A stretch of DNA of 64,000 nt from Verrucomicrobiaceae bacterium (GTDB lineage Bacteria; Verrucomicrobiota; Verrucomicrobiia; Verrucomicrobiales; Verrucomicrobiaceae). Positions 27,238 through 58,883 of the stretch are shown here, piece by piece. Where the stretch lies: NCBI GenBank assembly GCA_947507875.1, contig CANNQP010000017.1, positions 1 through 64,000 on the forward strand, in the 5' to 3' direction. The notes beneath the pieces were generated by a model. It saw only the letters and a program-made list of their open reading frames with translations, was not told where the DNA came from and searched no databases. The position numbers were made by a program, and so were the translations under genes. Positions within the stretch are counted from its first letter, which is position 1, and each line of letters opens with the position of its first letter.

Positions 27238-27600
27238 GCCTCGCGGCGCCGCGCCGGATCGCCCCTTCAGGGCTTCGTGACGGCTCTGACTGCCCTGGGA
27301 CTTTGTCCCAGGCTGAGATGGGCCAGGCCGTTGGCCCTGAAAATGAGCCGAATCGTGGATACCTGAAGCAGCAAGCCAACCCAGCCCACTCCAGCGCCAA
27401 AGGCGCGAGCCATCCCAGTACATGGCCTCTTCCAAGGATCGCGCACGAGGCACTGCCCTCAAGAAGGACCATCACCCTCGCCGTGCCCGAATGCCCACTC
27501 CAGCGCCAAAGGCGCGAGCCATTTCAGCCCAGGGCAACGCCCTGGGGAACGGGGGCGAGACGAGACCTCTTGAGCCCTGAAGGGGCGACCCATGCAGCGC
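27238..27600. repeat. Intergenic palindromic repeat cluster
   Basis: Perfect 29-bp direct repeat CCCACTCCAGCGCCAAAGGCGCGAGCCAT at 27385-27413 and 27494-27522; palindromes CCTGGGACTTTGTCCCAGG (27294-27312), GGGCCA..TGGCCC (27320-27337), CCCAGGGCAACGCCCTGGG (27528-27546); inverted GCCCCTTCAGGGC (27261-27273) / GCCCTGAAGGGGC (27574-27586). Confidence 0.92.
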
Positions 27601-33762: not shown

Positions 33763-36588
33763 TCAGTAGAGGTAGGCGAATTCGTTCGAGTTCAGCAGCA
33801 CAAGGCAGACATCGGCCAGCGCACGTGTTTTGGCATCGCAATCCGCTGGTTGAAGGTCAGGGACGAAGTCGGCGTAACCGGGGAGCTTTTCTTGGAAGCT
33901 GAATTTCTCGCCGGTGTTCTCTTCGACGGCTTCGCGGCGCACTTCGAGCGGCGGCTTGGGCTTTGAAAACGTCAATTTCGCCTGCTTGGCCTCCATTTGC
34001 TGCCAGTGAGCTTCACAACTGGCCTTTTCGTCCGCAACAGGCTTGCGGCCGAACGTGAGCTCAAACACTCGCGAGATCGGATCGGCGGCTTTTTCCTTCA
34101 AGATGCGATTCGCGAGCGCCAGGGCCCGATCATAGCTCGCCTGGCCGTTGAAGAGGCTGAAGACCTGCGGCGTGACGGTGGAGACCTCACGGGCTTCGCA
34201 GGAAAAGTCCGGCGCAGGCTCGTTGAAGACCTCCATGAAGGGATCTCGCAGACCGCGAATCTTGAGCGCATACAAACTGCGGCGATGTCGCTGCTGTGGC
34301 AGCGGATTCGGCACCCACGCGGCGGCAAACGTGCCCATGACCATGCGCGGCTGCATCGCCACCTCGATGTTGATCTCCGGCCGGTTCGGAATGCCGCCCA
34401 GCGTCGGATTGAGCTCGCCGGTGATGCTTAGCATCGCATCGCGAAGCTCCTCCGCCATGAGACGGCGGGGTTTGAAGGTGGCGTAGGACGAACTTCCAAG
34501 TTCGTCAGATGAACGAGCTTGGAAGCTCGTTCTACGATACGCCGCGCTCGTCATGATCAGCCGGTGCATGTCCTTCACACTCCAACCCTTCTCCACGAGC
34601 GTTGCAGCGAGAAAATCGAGCAGTTCGGGATGTGTGGGCTTTTTGCCGGTGCTGCCAAAGTTGTTGGGGTTGCCCGCGATGGCCTGCCCGAAATGCCAGA
34701 GCCACAAGCGGTTCACGAAGGTGCGCGTGGTGAGCGGGTTGTCCTTGCTGGCGATCCACTTCGCGAGCGCGGTGCGGCGGCCTTCGACCGCTTCGGGGAA
34801 CTCGATGCTGCCGAGGATGGAAAGCACACCGGGCTTCACTTTCGTCGTCGGTGAAAACGGATCACCGCCTCCAAGAATGGCGGTTTGTTCGAGTTCACCG
34901 TTCTTCATGCGGTCGCCGGGCATGCGCAGCGGCTGGTAAACGTTCACCATCGGGAGGGTGACGCCATTGTACACGCTGAAGGCATAGGGCTCGTAGCGCT
35001 CCATCTCCCACTTCAGGCGTTCGAGGCCTTTGCGGGCCACGCGTTCGTTGCCGAAGTCCTGCGGCTCAAAGCCGACGAGCTTCGGCGGATACTGATCCTC
35101 CGGCACGCCTTGCTTGGTGAGGATCTGCCGTGCGGCACCAAACACATCGGAGAAGCCCTTTTTGGCGTTCTTGCCGCCCCCTTGCTTCGCTTGAGCCACC
35201 GCAGCGTTCCATTTCGCCGGATCGACCTTTTTCTCGGCGAACCAGTTCGCCGCATTTTGGAGCAGTTTTTCGTCGAGCGCCTTCAACACGGCCAGATGCT
35301 CGGCGCGGCGAGCTTCGAGATACTTTTTCTCCTCAAAGCCACTCGTGTTCTCCGACTTCAAAAACAGCGCTTCACGCTCGGTAAGCTGCGTCGTCGCGAA
35401 GCAGGCCTGGATCGAGTAGTAATCATGCGTTGGCACCGGATCGAACTTGTGATCATGGCAACGCGCGCATTGCAGCGAGTGCGCGAGGAAGGTCTCGCCG
35501 ACCGAATTTGTCACATCGTCGAGAAACCGCTGACGTGCGACTTTCGCCACCTCCATGCCCGTGAGCTCCCACGGCCCCATGCGAAGAAAACCGGTGGCGA
35601 TGAGGAGCTCTGATTTATGATTTGTGATTTGTGATTTATGATTTGGGTCATCGACCATCTCATCTCCCGCGATCTGCTCGACGATGAACTGATCGAAGGG
35701 TTTGTCCGCATGGAAGCTGCGCACGACGTAATCGCGATAGCGCCAGGCATTGCCGCGTTCGTAGTCGTTCGCGAAGCCGCTGCTGTCCGCGTAGCGCACG
35801 ACATCCAGCCAGTGCCGGGCCATGCGTTCGCCGTAGTGCGGGGATTCGAGCAGTCGATTGATCAAACGCAGCCACGCGTCGGACCGGTCCGACACGTCCG
35901 ACCAGTCGGACTCAAACGCGGCCACTTCTTCGGGTGTCGGCGGTAGCCCCGTGAGATCAAACGTGGCGCGGCGGATCAAAGTCCGCGCATCCGCCTCCGA
36001 CGCAGGCTCCTTCACCGCGAGCAGCGCATCCACCGGGTGTTCGTCCTTCGTCATTCGGATTTCCGGTTTCCGAACGGGCTGGTAACCCCAAAGCGACTCC
36101 GGCTTGTAGCGCCGATTGGCCCATTCCGGTGTCAAAGCACCTTTCACCTTCACCGTGATGCCATCTTCCGCACTCCACTTGTCCGCGCTCGCCTTCGCGA
36201 TGGCATTTCGTTTCGCCTCACCGGGCCACGGAGCGCCGCCAGCGATCCATTCCTTGATCCACGCGAGCTGCTCGGACTTCAGTTGATCCGCCTCCTTCGG
36301 CGGCATCGGCTCCCAATCGTCGTGCTGGCGTGTCGAGGCGAGGTAGAGCGGGCTTTCGTCCGGCTTGCCGGGCACAAGGGCCTTCACGCCGCTCTCACCG
36401 CCTTGGGTCGCGCTTGCGAGCGTGCGCATGTCGTAGTTCGCCTTGATCTTCTTTTCGTCGTTCCCATGACAAGCGAGGCATTTTTCCTGAAACAACGGCC
36501 ACACACGCCGCACGAACAATGATTCGCCATCCTCCGCATGCAGGGCGTAGGTAGTCGCCAAAAAGATCCCGAGAACACGCGGAGTCAT
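33763..36588 (-). CDS. Planctomycete-type cytochrome c / DUF1549 / DUF1553 protein
   Basis: FQEKCLACHGNDEKK heme-binding motif; RRATFDLTGLPPTPEEV and HYGERMARHWLDVVRYADSSGFANDYERGNAWRYRDYVV (DUF1549); RTFVNRLWLWHFGQAIAGNPNNFGSTGKKPTHPELLDFLA (DUF1553). Confidence 0.94.
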   Translation of the reverse strand: MTPRVLGIFLATTYALHAEDGESLFVRRVWPLFQEKCLACHGNDEKKIKANYDMRTLASATQGGESGVKALVPGKPDESPLYLASTRQHDDWEPMPPKEADQLKSEQLAWIKEWIAGGAPWPGEAKRNAIAKASADKWSAEDGITVKVKGALTPEWANRRYKPESLWGYQPVRKPEIRMTKDEHPVDALLAVKEPASEADARTLIRRATFDLTGLPPTPEEVAAFESDWSDVSDRSDAWLRLINRLLESPHYGERMARHWLDVVRYADSSGFANDYERGNAWRYRDYVVRSFHADKPFDQFIVEQIAGDEMVDDPNHKSQITNHKSELLIATGFLRMGPWELTGMEVAKVARQRFLDDVTNSVGETFLAHSLQCARCHDHKFDPVPTHDYYSIQACFATTQLTEREALFLKSENTSGFEEKKYLEARRAEHLAVLKALDEKLLQNAANWFAEKKVDPAKWNAAVAQAKQGGGKNAKKGFSDVFGAARQILTKQGVPEDQYPPKLVGFEPQDFGNERVARKGLERLKWEMERYEPYAFSVYNGVTLPMVNVYQPLRMPGDRMKNGELEQTAILGGGDPFSPTTKVKPGVLSILGSIEFPEAVEGRRTALAKWIASKDNPLTTRTFVNRLWLWHFGQAIAGNPNNFGSTGKKPTHPELLDFLAATLVEKGWSVKDMHRLIMTSAAYRRTSFQARSSDELGSSSYATFKPRRLMAEELRDAMLSITGELNPTLGGIPNRPEINIEVAMQPRMVMGTFAAAWVPNPLPQQRHRRSLYALKIRGLRDPFMEVFNEPAPDFSCEAREVSTVTPQVFSLFNGQASYDRALALANRILKEKAADPISRVFELTFGRKPVADEKASCEAHWQQMEAKQAKLTFSKPKPPLEVRREAVEENTGEKFSFQEKLPGYADFVPDLQPADCDAKTRALADVCLVLLNSNEFAYLY
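34483..34535. repeat. Nested palindromic element inside the DUF1553 CDS
   Basis: GTAGGACGAACTTCCAAGTTCGTC-AGAT-GAACGAGCTTGGAAGCTCGTTCTAC: two perfect hairpins (ACGAACTT-CC-AAGTTCGT; AACGAGCTT-GG-AAGCTCGTT) that are also near inverse complements of each other; encodes YRRTSFQARSSDELGSSSYA. Confidence 0.9.
35612..35648. repeat. GATTTATGATTTGTGATTT low-complexity repeat inside the DUF1553 CDS
   Basis: GATTTATGATTTGTGATTTGTGATTTATGATTTGGG; minus-strand translation PNHKSQITNHKSE. Confidence 0.88.
35878..35911. repeat. GTCGGAC palindrome pair inside the DUF1553 CDS
   Basis: GTCGGACCGGTCCGAC (perfect 16-bp palindrome), then GTCCGAC-CA-GTCGGAC; translates to DWSDVSDRSD. Confidence 0.9.
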
Positions 36589-55646: not shown

Positions 55647-58600
55647 TCAGCCCAAAAGCTCCTCCAGCTCACCTTCCGCCAAGCCGGCCATGAGGGGGCT
55701 GTGTTCATCGAGCGTAGCTTCAATGAGACCGCGCTTTTTGGCCTGCAAGGCCAGGATGCGTTCCTCCACGGTGCCGCGCAGGGCCAGGCGATAGGCGGTG
55801 ACGACGCGCTGCTGGCCGATGCGGTGGGCGCGGTCGATGGCTTGAGCTTCGACGGCCGGGTTCCACCAAGGGTCGAGCAGGATGACGTGGTCAGCCGCCG
55901 TGAGGTTGAGTCCGTAACCACCGGCCTTGAGGCTGATGAGGAAAACTTTGCGCTTCGGATCGGCCTGAAAGGCTTTGACCTGCGCTTCGCGGTCATTGCT
56001 GGAGCCGTCGATGTAGCCGTAATCGATGCCATCGGCATCCAGCTTGGCGCGCACGAGTTTCAAGTACTGCACGAACTGACTGAAGATGAGCACTTTGCCG
56101 TCCGCATCAAGGATGGCGTCCAGCTTGTCCTGAAGCATTGGCCATTTGCCAGAAAGGTCATCGGGTTCTAGCCCCTTCAAGGCATCTCCCGTGAGGCCAG
56201 TGAGGCGGAGGTCGCAGCAGGTCTGGCGGAGGCGCAGCAGGACGGTGAACATGGTCATCTTCGCTCCGCCCTGGCCGCTGCGCTTGCGCGCGGCTTTGAT
56301 CTCCTCACGACCTTCCTCCAGGACGCGGCGGTACACCTCGGCCTGGGCGGCGGAAGGTTCGCACCAGAGGACTTGCTCGATTTTCTCGGGCAGATCCTTC
56401 AGCACCTCGCGCTTAGCGCGGCGCAGGAAATAGGGGCGCAGCAGTTTTTTCAGGCGGTCGCTGGCTGCGAGTCCAGCCGGACTATCGAGGCCGTTTTGAA
56501 TGGGCTGCTCGAAGCGTTCCTTGAAGTTGTCGCGGCTGCCGAGGTAACCAGGCAGGGCGAACTGGTAGATGGACCAAAGGTCACGCGTGCTGTTTTCCAC
56601 CGGAGTGCCGGTGAGGGCGAGGCGGGCGCGGCTTTTCAGCGAGCGCAGCGCCTTGGCGGCATCGGTGTCGGGATTGCGAATGTAGCTGGCCTCATCCAGC
56701 AGGATGAGCTGCCAGGGTTGCTTTTGCAGCACATCCTGATCGCGCACAGCGAGCTGGTAGGTGGTGATGATGACATCCTGCTCCGCGAGGCGGGAAAGCA
56801 GGCCAGCGCGGTTGCTGCCCTGGGACACGGCCACCTTCAGATGCGGGGCGAATTTCTCCAATTCCGAGCGCCAGTTGCCAGTGAGGCTCTTGGGACAAAC
56901 GATGAGGACGGGAGCGTAAACCGATTCTCCAGAATGGGTTTCTGAGGTGGTCGATGCGGACGAGTCCCGACTTTGGAAAGTCGGGCTACGCAGCGCACAA
57001 ATCGCCGCGATGCTTTGCACCGTTTTGCCAAGGCCCATTTCGTCACCAAGGACGCCGCCGCGACCGCTTTCGGCGAGGGTCACTAGCCAACGCGTGCCTA
57101 AAAGTTGGTAAGGCCGCAGCTTGGGCCCAAGATCGCCCAACTTCGCAAAGAGGGCAGCTTCTTCGGTGAGCTTCGCAGGCGTGGTGTCCTCGCCCCCCAA
57201 GAAGTAGTCGGCATGCAGGCTGCTGATGCGGGCACCATCCGCGGTGAGCTGGAGCGGCACGTCACGCAGCGTGTCTTCAAATTCTTCGACACCGGCGAGG
57301 TCGAGCAGGTAGCGCTTGCCATTCTTCGCCGTGACGCTGCGCTGGCCACTGCGGACGAGGCGGAGAACCTCGGCACGTGGCAGGCGGAAGCCATCAGGGG
57401 CCTCGTAGGCGAACTCCATGGCCAGCCAATCCTGCCCCCCGCCGCTGCGGCCTTCATTCTCGCCTTCCCGACGATGAATCTGCGGAGCTATGCGCGCGAC
57501 ACCACGCGTGGCGGCACGCCAGCGTTCGCCTTCGATCACCTTCATTTCACGGCGCAACCGGGGCAGCTCGGTGGCGTAGAGTTCCAGCACAGACTCGGGC
57601 TTCGTCAGCTTCCACACGAGGCGGTGTCCGCTTGCCTCGACCTTCATGCTGATCTGGAAACCGAGCGACTCCATGAGGGCCATGAGACGGGCTTCTTCAG
57701 CCTCGTTGCGAAGGTAGAAAAGACCAGGGGTGGTGCTGTCTTCGAACGGGAAGAGAGTCTCGGCCGCACAACGCGGGCCGCTTTCTCCCACGAGCCATTC
57801 TTTGCCCCCAAAGTCAGCGCGCAGAGTGGCCTCGACGGCTTGAAGCGAGCCCTCAAGATGCAGCGTGAAACGGCAGGGCACAGGCGCGCAGTGGAAGTGC
57901 TCCAAGCCTGAGCCACGCAGTTCGAGCTGGAAGGCATCGTTGAGGGCCTCGCGGTGCTGGATGAGCCATTTCAGCGGGCGCTTGGCCGGCAGCTCACGCA
58001 GCAGCTGCTCCGCTTCGGAGGTGAGCTTGGGGACAGGAAAAAGGCTCTGCGTCTCGCGGCAAAACCAAGCGGCCGTAGGGCGCTGTGGAAAGAGCGGGCG
58101 CTGGTCCTCACTGGCTAGGCGGAAGGTCACATCCTTCTCCCCGGGCCTGGATTCAGCGGTCAGCAACAAACGCACGGGCTCGCGAGCAATGCTGAGCGGC
58201 GAGCCACCGCCATTGGGCTTGCCCGCGATGACGCGCGGATGCTCAGCCGCGGCGCGGAAGAAGTCATCGAGCGCAGCGGCAGGTAGAGAAAGTGGCACGC
58301 TTTGCCCTTTGACCCCTTTCTCCGCCAACCAAGCGGCGAGCAGGGATTCCTCGGGCTCCTTATCGTTCGGATTGTAGCGGACATAGACCCCCACGGGCTC
58401 ACGCATCTGACCGGTGAGTAGGTTCTCCGGCAAATACAGCGTGTAGAAGCCTGGAACACGAAGGGGCTGCGTGGCTGGCGTGGGCGCACTTGCCAAAGCG
58501 CGAGCTTGAGGCCCGGTGGAGGGCTGAGCAGAGCGCGAACTAGCGTTTGAACCGACAGAAGTCGGCGTGCTCGTCAGAGCACGTCCCTGGGAACTGGCAG

Positions 58601-58883
58601 CCGGGCCAGCCCCACCTCGAAGATGCGCCAAGACGACCGCCAGAGAATGCTCGCAAATCAGGCCACGGCGGGAAGCGGGGCAGGTGCAGAGATTGGTGAC
58701 GTCTGTCCGCGAGGTGAAAGCGAGGCCACAGGCAAATTTGGTTTTTCCCGCACCCGCCAGACCGCGGACGCGACCTGTCTCGGCGCTTTGCAGGGTGACA
58801 AAACCGCCGTCCACGAGGCCGCGTGCGGCTTTCATCGCCTGCCAGCCGCCAATCTCGCCTAGCCATTTCTCGGTAAGTTCCAT
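55647..58883 (-). CDS. SNF2-family helicase with N-terminal SWIM zinc finger
   Basis: CTCPASRRGLICEHSLAVVLAHL (SWIM); GGVLGDEMGLGKTVQSIAAICAL; LILLDEASYIRNPDTDAAKALRSLKSRARLALTGTPVEN; DPWWNPAVEAQAIDRAHRIGQQ. Confidence 0.95.
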   Translation of the reverse strand: MELTEKWLGEIGGWQAMKAARGLVDGGFVTLQSAETGRVRGLAGAGKTKFACGLAFTSRTDVTNLCTCPASRRGLICEHSLAVVLAHLRGGAGPAASSQGRALTSTPTSVGSNASSRSAQPSTGPQARALASAPTPATQPLRVPGFYTLYLPENLLTGQMREPVGVYVRYNPNDKEPEESLLAAWLAEKGVKGQSVPLSLPAAALDDFFRAAAEHPRVIAGKPNGGGSPLSIAREPVRLLLTAESRPGEKDVTFRLASEDQRPLFPQRPTAAWFCRETQSLFPVPKLTSEAEQLLRELPAKRPLKWLIQHREALNDAFQLELRGSGLEHFHCAPVPCRFTLHLEGSLQAVEATLRADFGGKEWLVGESGPRCAAETLFPFEDSTTPGLFYLRNEAEEARLMALMESLGFQISMKVEASGHRLVWKLTKPESVLELYATELPRLRREMKVIEGERWRAATRGVARIAPQIHRREGENEGRSGGGQDWLAMEFAYEAPDGFRLPRAEVLRLVRSGQRSVTAKNGKRYLLDLAGVEEFEDTLRDVPLQLTADGARISSLHADYFLGGEDTTPAKLTEEAALFAKLGDLGPKLRPYQLLGTRWLVTLAESGRGGVLGDEMGLGKTVQSIAAICALRSPTFQSRDSSASTTSETHSGESVYAPVLIVCPKSLTGNWRSELEKFAPHLKVAVSQGSNRAGLLSRLAEQDVIITTYQLAVRDQDVLQKQPWQLILLDEASYIRNPDTDAAKALRSLKSRARLALTGTPVENSTRDLWSIYQFALPGYLGSRDNFKERFEQPIQNGLDSPAGLAASDRLKKLLRPYFLRRAKREVLKDLPEKIEQVLWCEPSAAQAEVYRRVLEEGREEIKAARKRSGQGGAKMTMFTVLLRLRQTCCDLRLTGLTGDALKGLEPDDLSGKWPMLQDKLDAILDADGKVLIFSQFVQYLKLVRAKLDADGIDYGYIDGSSNDREAQVKAFQADPKRKVFLISLKAGGYGLNLTAADHVILLDPWWNPAVEAQAIDRAHRIGQQRVVTAYRLALRGTVEERILALQAKKRGLIEATLDEHSPLMAGLAEGELEELLG
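56966..56990. repeat. Palindromic element inside the SNF2 CDS
   Basis: CCCGACTTT-GG-AAAGTCGGG-CTACG: perfect 9-bp stem; same layout as 34511-34536 (AACGAGCTT-GG-AAGCTCGTT-CTACG); translates to LRSPTFQSRDS. Confidence 0.88.

Follow-up and report, generated by a model that had tools for sequence, protein, structure and literature searches.

A palindrome within an SNF2 helicase gene is one half of an inverted REP doublet

How does a perfect palindrome come to lie, in frame, within the motor of a conserved helicase? This question is raised by an SNF2-family gene in a stretch of 64,000 nt (hereafter the window) from a member of the Verrucomicrobiaceae (GCA_947507875.1, contig CANNQP010000017.1, positions 1 to 64,000). 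The initial annotation had described a 25-nt hairpin at 56966-56990, encoding SPTFQSRDS between the motif I and Ia regions. This reading was correct to the letter: the plus strand is CCCGACTTT-GG-AAAGTCGGG-CTACG, an exact palindrome, and the sense strand of the gene places R-SPTFQSRDS between GLGKTVQSIAAICAL and PVLIVCPKSLTGNW. Read on the minus strand, the same positions give CGTAG, a 9-bp stem, CC and a 9-bp stem, that is, a GTAG-tagged REP, and the CTACG flank pointed out earlier, once reverse-complemented, becomes CGTAG and forms the 5' tag of this opposite-strand hairpin. REP sequences are recognised by a GTAG tetranucleotide placed at the 5' foot of their short hairpin. The hairpin stands as described, but the unit extends further, as the full element is an inverted doublet of 76 nt (56915-56990).

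55647..58883, minus strand: host gene, SNF2-family helicase (SNF2-rel_dom, Helicase_C; domain profile matches)
56966..56990, minus strand: REP A, CGTAG + CCCGACTTT-CC-AAAGTCGGG (37.5 bits, E 1.5e-6, whole genome)
56940..56965, no strand: 26-nt spacer between REP A and REP B
56915..56939, plus strand: REP B, decayed inverted partner, CGTAA + ACCGATTCT-CC-AGAATGGGT (19.4 bits, E 0.0038, window, filters off)

In frame, the SNF2 doublet codes for RSPTFQSRDSSASTTSETHSGESVYA, which lies in the loop joining motif I to motif Ia. This segment is far shorter in the aligned structure of a Sulfolobus homologue (1z63). Its 26-nt spacer had no significant match to the loops of relatives or to other spacers.

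A second hairpin with the same architecture and the same CTACG flank had been noted in a DUF1553 gene 22 kb away. We recovered it at 34512-34536, where the plus strand reads exactly AACGAGCTT-GG-AAGCTCGTT-CTACG. It also belongs to a doublet (34482-34536) made of two facing hairpins with their tags outward and 5 nt between them, which in frame encodes RTSFQARSSDELGSSSYA directly after SAAYR.

33763..36588, minus strand: host gene, PSCyt1-DUF1549-DUF1553 protein (domain profile matches)
34482..34506, plus strand: REP, CGTAG + GACGAACTT-CC-AAGTTCGTC (covariance-model match)
34507-34511: 5-nt spacer
34512..34536, minus strand: REP, CGTAG + AACGAGCTT-CC-AAGCTCGTT (covariance-model match)

The DUF1553 protein (33763-36588) also contains NHKSQITNHKS, and a LamG protein (L079) contains INHKSKIINPQK. 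These in-frame, repeat-like peptides probably derive from a different dispersed short repeat.

The hairpins belong to a dispersed family with conserved structure and orientation

A covariance model built from seven copies gave 23 matches in the genome of the window (about 20 copies), 15 of them at E<0.003. Matches were also found in 33 of 56 related genomes, with up to 64 per genome at E<=0.003, and 73 REPs were mapped in G005, a genome whose SNF2 locus is identical to that of Brevifollis gellanilyticus. As a background control, 21 genomes from other genera were included, and only 3 of them had any match. The proposal of one dispersed family was thus borne out by further copies both genome-wide and in related genomes. 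It had missed the inverted pair of GTAG REPs as the unit, the link to RAYT genes described below, and the fact that intragenic GTAG REPs are already known (PMC3733652).

The initial annotation had also held that the stems differ in a compensatory manner, the hairpin being conserved rather than the primary sequence. Covariation agrees with this. Over 74 distinct rows of an alignment that was fitted to the model and hence leans towards structure, 97.6% of the cells form standard pairs, both sides have changed in 6 of the 8 stem pairs, and double changes number 122 compared to 28 in shuffles. The covariation score was 0.558, vs 0.187 when shuffled and at most 0.17 with slid partners.

Tag conservation over 75 copies was 100% for G, 99% for T, 95% for A and 95% for G. 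Conservation sets in abruptly at (C)GTAG, the bases upstream being random. A conserved target site was rejected, since apart from the C itself the positions preceding CGTAG hold no information. In the genome of the window and G005 together, all 26 inverted doublets have GTAG outward and none inward; G005 also contains 4 tandem REP pairs. Doublet spacers range from 2 to 61 nt and are mostly unrelated in length and sequence, shared spacers being confined to two neighbouring G005 copies and to near-identical DUF1553 doublets. Therefore, movement of the doublet as a single unit is not evident for most copies. The Prosthecobacter-like REP is best described as a GTAG-tagged 20-nt hairpin, usually found in inverted doublets.

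A search of Rfam revealed no family covering the window elements. Elsewhere in the window, 27502-27546 matched the Acido-Lenti-1 RNA barely above its gathering score.

The SNF2 insert is absent from readable orthologues

Named close relatives of the window SNF2 gene are from Prosthecobacter sp. MAGs and B. gellanilyticus, and the source of the window is a Prosthecobacter-like member of the Verrucomicrobiaceae. The element had been taken for an insertion in a conserved ATPase, and the orthologues agree: from 88% identity downwards, none of those with a readable GLGKT-to-LxxNW stretch carries it. This stretch spans 38 aa in the closest orthologue (88% protein identity) vs 55 in the window, and the insert is lineage-specific. 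Furthermore, a second conserved gene of the same genome, mfd, contains a decayed doublet encoding SPTNFQVRSESQSDTPSHGFESSFHA, which is absent from 8 relatives, one of them at 88% identity. Scanning the SNF2, DUF1553 and Mfd loci of 49 relatives with the covariance model revealed REPs in the G005 DUF1553 gene and nowhere else.

SNF2 has a net gain of 51 nt and Mfd one of 48 nt, both below the 76-nt doublet. The edges of these inserts are not sharply readable because linkers vary even at 88% protein identity. A net gain close to the length of two REPs suggests that two single REPs may flank an old linker in each gene. Similarity between spacer and linker, with the spacer taken as ancestral host sequence, was not significant in SNF2 or Mfd (p 0.3 or more).

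REPs of three related genomes cluster around a RAYT gene

Of the 73 G005 REPs, 15 are gathered within 8 kb around a single Y1-transposase (RAYT) gene. Homologues sharing 70-74% identity occur in G025 and in G050, a member of another family of the order, and are flanked by the same REPs. In all three genomes a REP sits at the 3' end of the RAYT gene, where it encodes NVERVFQPVL. The G025 gene is split across two frames.

C7:184585-185316 of G005 (B. gellanilyticus): RAYT gene
CGTAG-AACGAGTTTTCCAACTCGTT: candidate single-stranded REP substrate paired with the B. gellanilyticus RAYT

The RAYT is 244 aa long and matches Y1_Tnp (PF01797); the PNHVH (HUH) and YIxxNPxKA tyrosine motifs are invariant in the alignment. 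Compared to solved structures, the best PDB match of its profile was TnpA-REP 4ER8 (E 2.2e-7). Against NCBIfam NF047646 (REP_Tyr_transpos) it scored 63.5 bits, below the curated cut-off of 80.

The RAYT gene adjoins kdp potassium-transport genes in G005 (C7:181858-189630; L167, L232) and G050 (C98; L183, L108), and a sensor-kinase gene resembling kdpD in G025 (C134; L168). In both G005 and G050, which belong to different taxonomic families, KdpA itself has REP doublets, and their site is the same.

The assembly of the window itself, which is 93% complete so that a RAYT gene could be missing from it, contains no close homologue of the REP-associated RAYT; the nearest is 37% identical and is accompanied by a different palindrome pair. 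REP copies in this genome are more degraded, with CGTAA, CGTGG and TGCAG tags. Given the lack of a close RAYT copy in the assembly, they look like orphaned relics. The RAYT-like genes that the assembly does contain (C19, C39, C10, C59, C32) were rejected as cognate because they are either IS200-like or truncated, or else lie with different palindromes. Near the one on C39 lies a single weak REP match (17.7 bits). On C10 (L005, about 1798-1870), a RAYT-like gene is followed by the inverted pair GTGATGCGGGCACTCTTGCCCGCA, with a similar sequence near C6:30991, and this pair probably represents a further REP family served by an enzyme of its own. On C19 and C39 (L002, L003), two short IS200-like transposase genes lie amid many G+C-rich palindromes (CCTGGGCCGTTGGCCCAGG, GAGCCGGAGGCTCG, CCGGTGGTGCAACCACCGG), which are a further repeat system.

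DUF1553 genes carry doublets at a recurrent site

Doublets immediately follow [ST]xxYR, all at one point, in the window DUF1553 gene and its orthologues in G005 and G010. Distinct paralogues with a doublet at this site were found in G005 (C6:41556), G010 (C182, C129) and G007, and another G005 paralogue has a doublet nearby, close to the recurrent site (C8:161752). Either the site is preferred, or the doublet was moved by recombination between paralogues.

This locus bears on the strongest alternative, according to which gene conversion or recombination among copies and paralogues accounts for most of the spread of the hairpins, RAYT transposition now contributing little or nothing. Spacer excepted, the 55-nt doublets of the window, G010 (C182, C238) and G007 (C29) are near-identical at one site of paralogous genes, as recombination would have it. 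At the orthologous site, the G005 doublet keeps the A/G asymmetry while its stems match G005's own REP consensus, and the window assembly is without a close RAYT, both of which point the same way. Against this, copies occur in unrelated genes with unrelated flanks (SNF2, Mfd, KdpA, an AcrB-type transporter, a protein kinase and a multicopper oxidase), so that conversion between homologous genes is insufficient to account for them. We regard recombination as an unlikely main route, at roughly one chance in four.

REPs inside genes use two open reading frames

A codon-usage classifier applied to several genomes placed 33 of 66 loci in frame within genes (7/14 in the genome of the window, 13/23 in G005 and 13/29 elsewhere); these loci are the best-scoring matches, some are mutual orthologues, and the classifier is crude. 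Of 400 random positions in the window, the same classifier called 210 intragenic. Since the intragenic share is near this rate, the REPs do not evidently avoid genes, and "mainly extragenic", as the REP name would have it, does not describe the Prosthecobacter-like family. Besides SNF2 and Mfd, hosts include a vWA-like protein, a multicopper oxidase, a LamG protein, KdpA, an AcrB-type transporter, a molybdopterin oxidoreductase and protein kinases, in which the inserts are located between DFG and the APE-like motif (activation segment). Intragenic REPs use two frames, giving RRTxFxxRS or VERxFxxVP, and the remaining frame is closed, as it reads the TAG of GTAG as a stop.

These hosts also bear on the idea that the hairpin is selected in each gene as an RNA or protein device, such as a translation pause, a flexible linker or a regulatory hairpin. 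Compensatory changes do keep hairpins at some shared sites. A REP doublet lies at an apparently shared tRNA-array spacer site in G005, G008 and G019 (L230:1501-1554, L115:1472-1525, L112:1472-1525), and the stem differences among the three are compensatory. However, the host genes are unrelated, the inserts sit in variable linkers and are absent from most orthologues, and the window elements match no Rfam family. Furthermore, because two reading frames are in use, no single REP peptide is selected. Such a device is very improbable. Finally, a chance palindrome or ordinary conserved protein sequence, favoured only by the shortness of a single element, is already refuted by the genome-wide copies, 15 of them strong, as well as by the lack of the sequence in any orthologue and by the 3 perfect GTAG + 9-NN-9 hairpins in the window, where 200 order-2 Markov sequences averaged 0.005.

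A RAYT-spread REP family is the most likely source of the SNF2 insert

With a probability of about 0.88, we consider the element to be a copy of a dispersed GTAG REP family, most likely spread by RAYT, of which one doublet landed in the SNF2 loop. A RAYT, as an HUH/Y1 enzyme, would recognise the GTAG tag and the hairpin as single-stranded DNA, and REPs would enter both coding and non-coding DNA. One doublet would have landed in a variable surface loop between SNF2 motifs I and Ia, REPs being kept in genes only where frame and fold permit. The SNF2 doublet would have survived because it neither brought a stop nor shifted the frame overall, CGTAG being open in two frames out of three. From the sequence comparisons we infer that a RAYT moved the SNF2 element. 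By analogy with the biochemistry of TnpA-REP, which handles the REP as single-stranded DNA (PMC8266576, PMC6006769), movement probably proceeded through such DNA. The extra peptide was presumably tolerated rather than useful.

More tentatively, RAYT/REP may act in these Verrucomicrobiaceae as a natural in-frame linker mutagen, in which case genes entered as freely as intergenic DNA, two stop-free frames and the repeated decoration of the same DUF1553 loop would make REPs a lasting supply of novel peptide segments, and not just debris outside genes. The family offers a clear case of REP/RAYT copies that sit in conserved genes (SNF2, Mfd, KdpA and the activation segment of a protein kinase) and leave them intact. 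The way in which RAYTs move REPs, and a possible contribution of REPs to new peptide segments, can be tested in B. gellanilyticus, because this cultured relative has both the RAYT and the REPs.

Comparison with known palindromic elements

The RAYT found here shares the HUH and tyrosine motifs with known RAYT/TnpA-REP proteins, as well as a gene flanked by its own REPs and a REP within the gene (PMC6006769, PMC8266576, 4ER8), the latter having been described for subclass 2.4 (PMC6006769). In contrast, the G005-type protein has a longer N-terminus and falls below the NCBIfam cut-off. REPINs and BIMEs (Bertels and Rainey 2011, PMC3116915; E. coli BIME) are likewise dispersed, RAYT-linked inverted doublets with outward tags, but conserved spacers are expected among their copies, whereas spacers here are mostly unrelated. 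Like Rickettsia palindromic elements (RPE; Ogata, Claverie), our palindromes lie in frame in many unrelated protein genes. According to PMC3733652, RPE-4 and RPE-6 have a CGTC tag and no dedicated transposase, unlike the Prosthecobacter-like family with its GTAG tag and a RAYT in relatives.

A further close match is to the GTAG REPs of Di Nocera et al. 2013 (PMC3733652), which are defined there by a GTAG (or GTRG) tag, a loop of 2-20 nt and a stem of 5-13 bp. They occur in the PVC superphylum, predominantly as HH dimers and in association with RAYTs. Most REPs are said there to sit between genes; an extragenic location is not required of GTAG REPs, and in-frame intragenic copies are reported with a bias to repair genes, Opitutus terrae (Verrucomicrobia) having the most. 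Our family resembles them in tag, hairpin, GTAG-outside dimers, RAYT association and in-frame ORF copies, and differs in being about half intragenic and in occupying the same site of several DUF1553 paralogues. Literature searches for Verrucomicrobia with REP and for Prosthecobacter with palindromic repeats returned no description of this family. Since GTAG REPs, REPINs/BIMEs and in-frame intragenic REPs have all been described, the family is new while its type is known. It is probably distinct from the 24 published GTAG consensus families of PMC3733652. Its unusual features are an unusually intragenic spread and the recurrent DUF1553 site.
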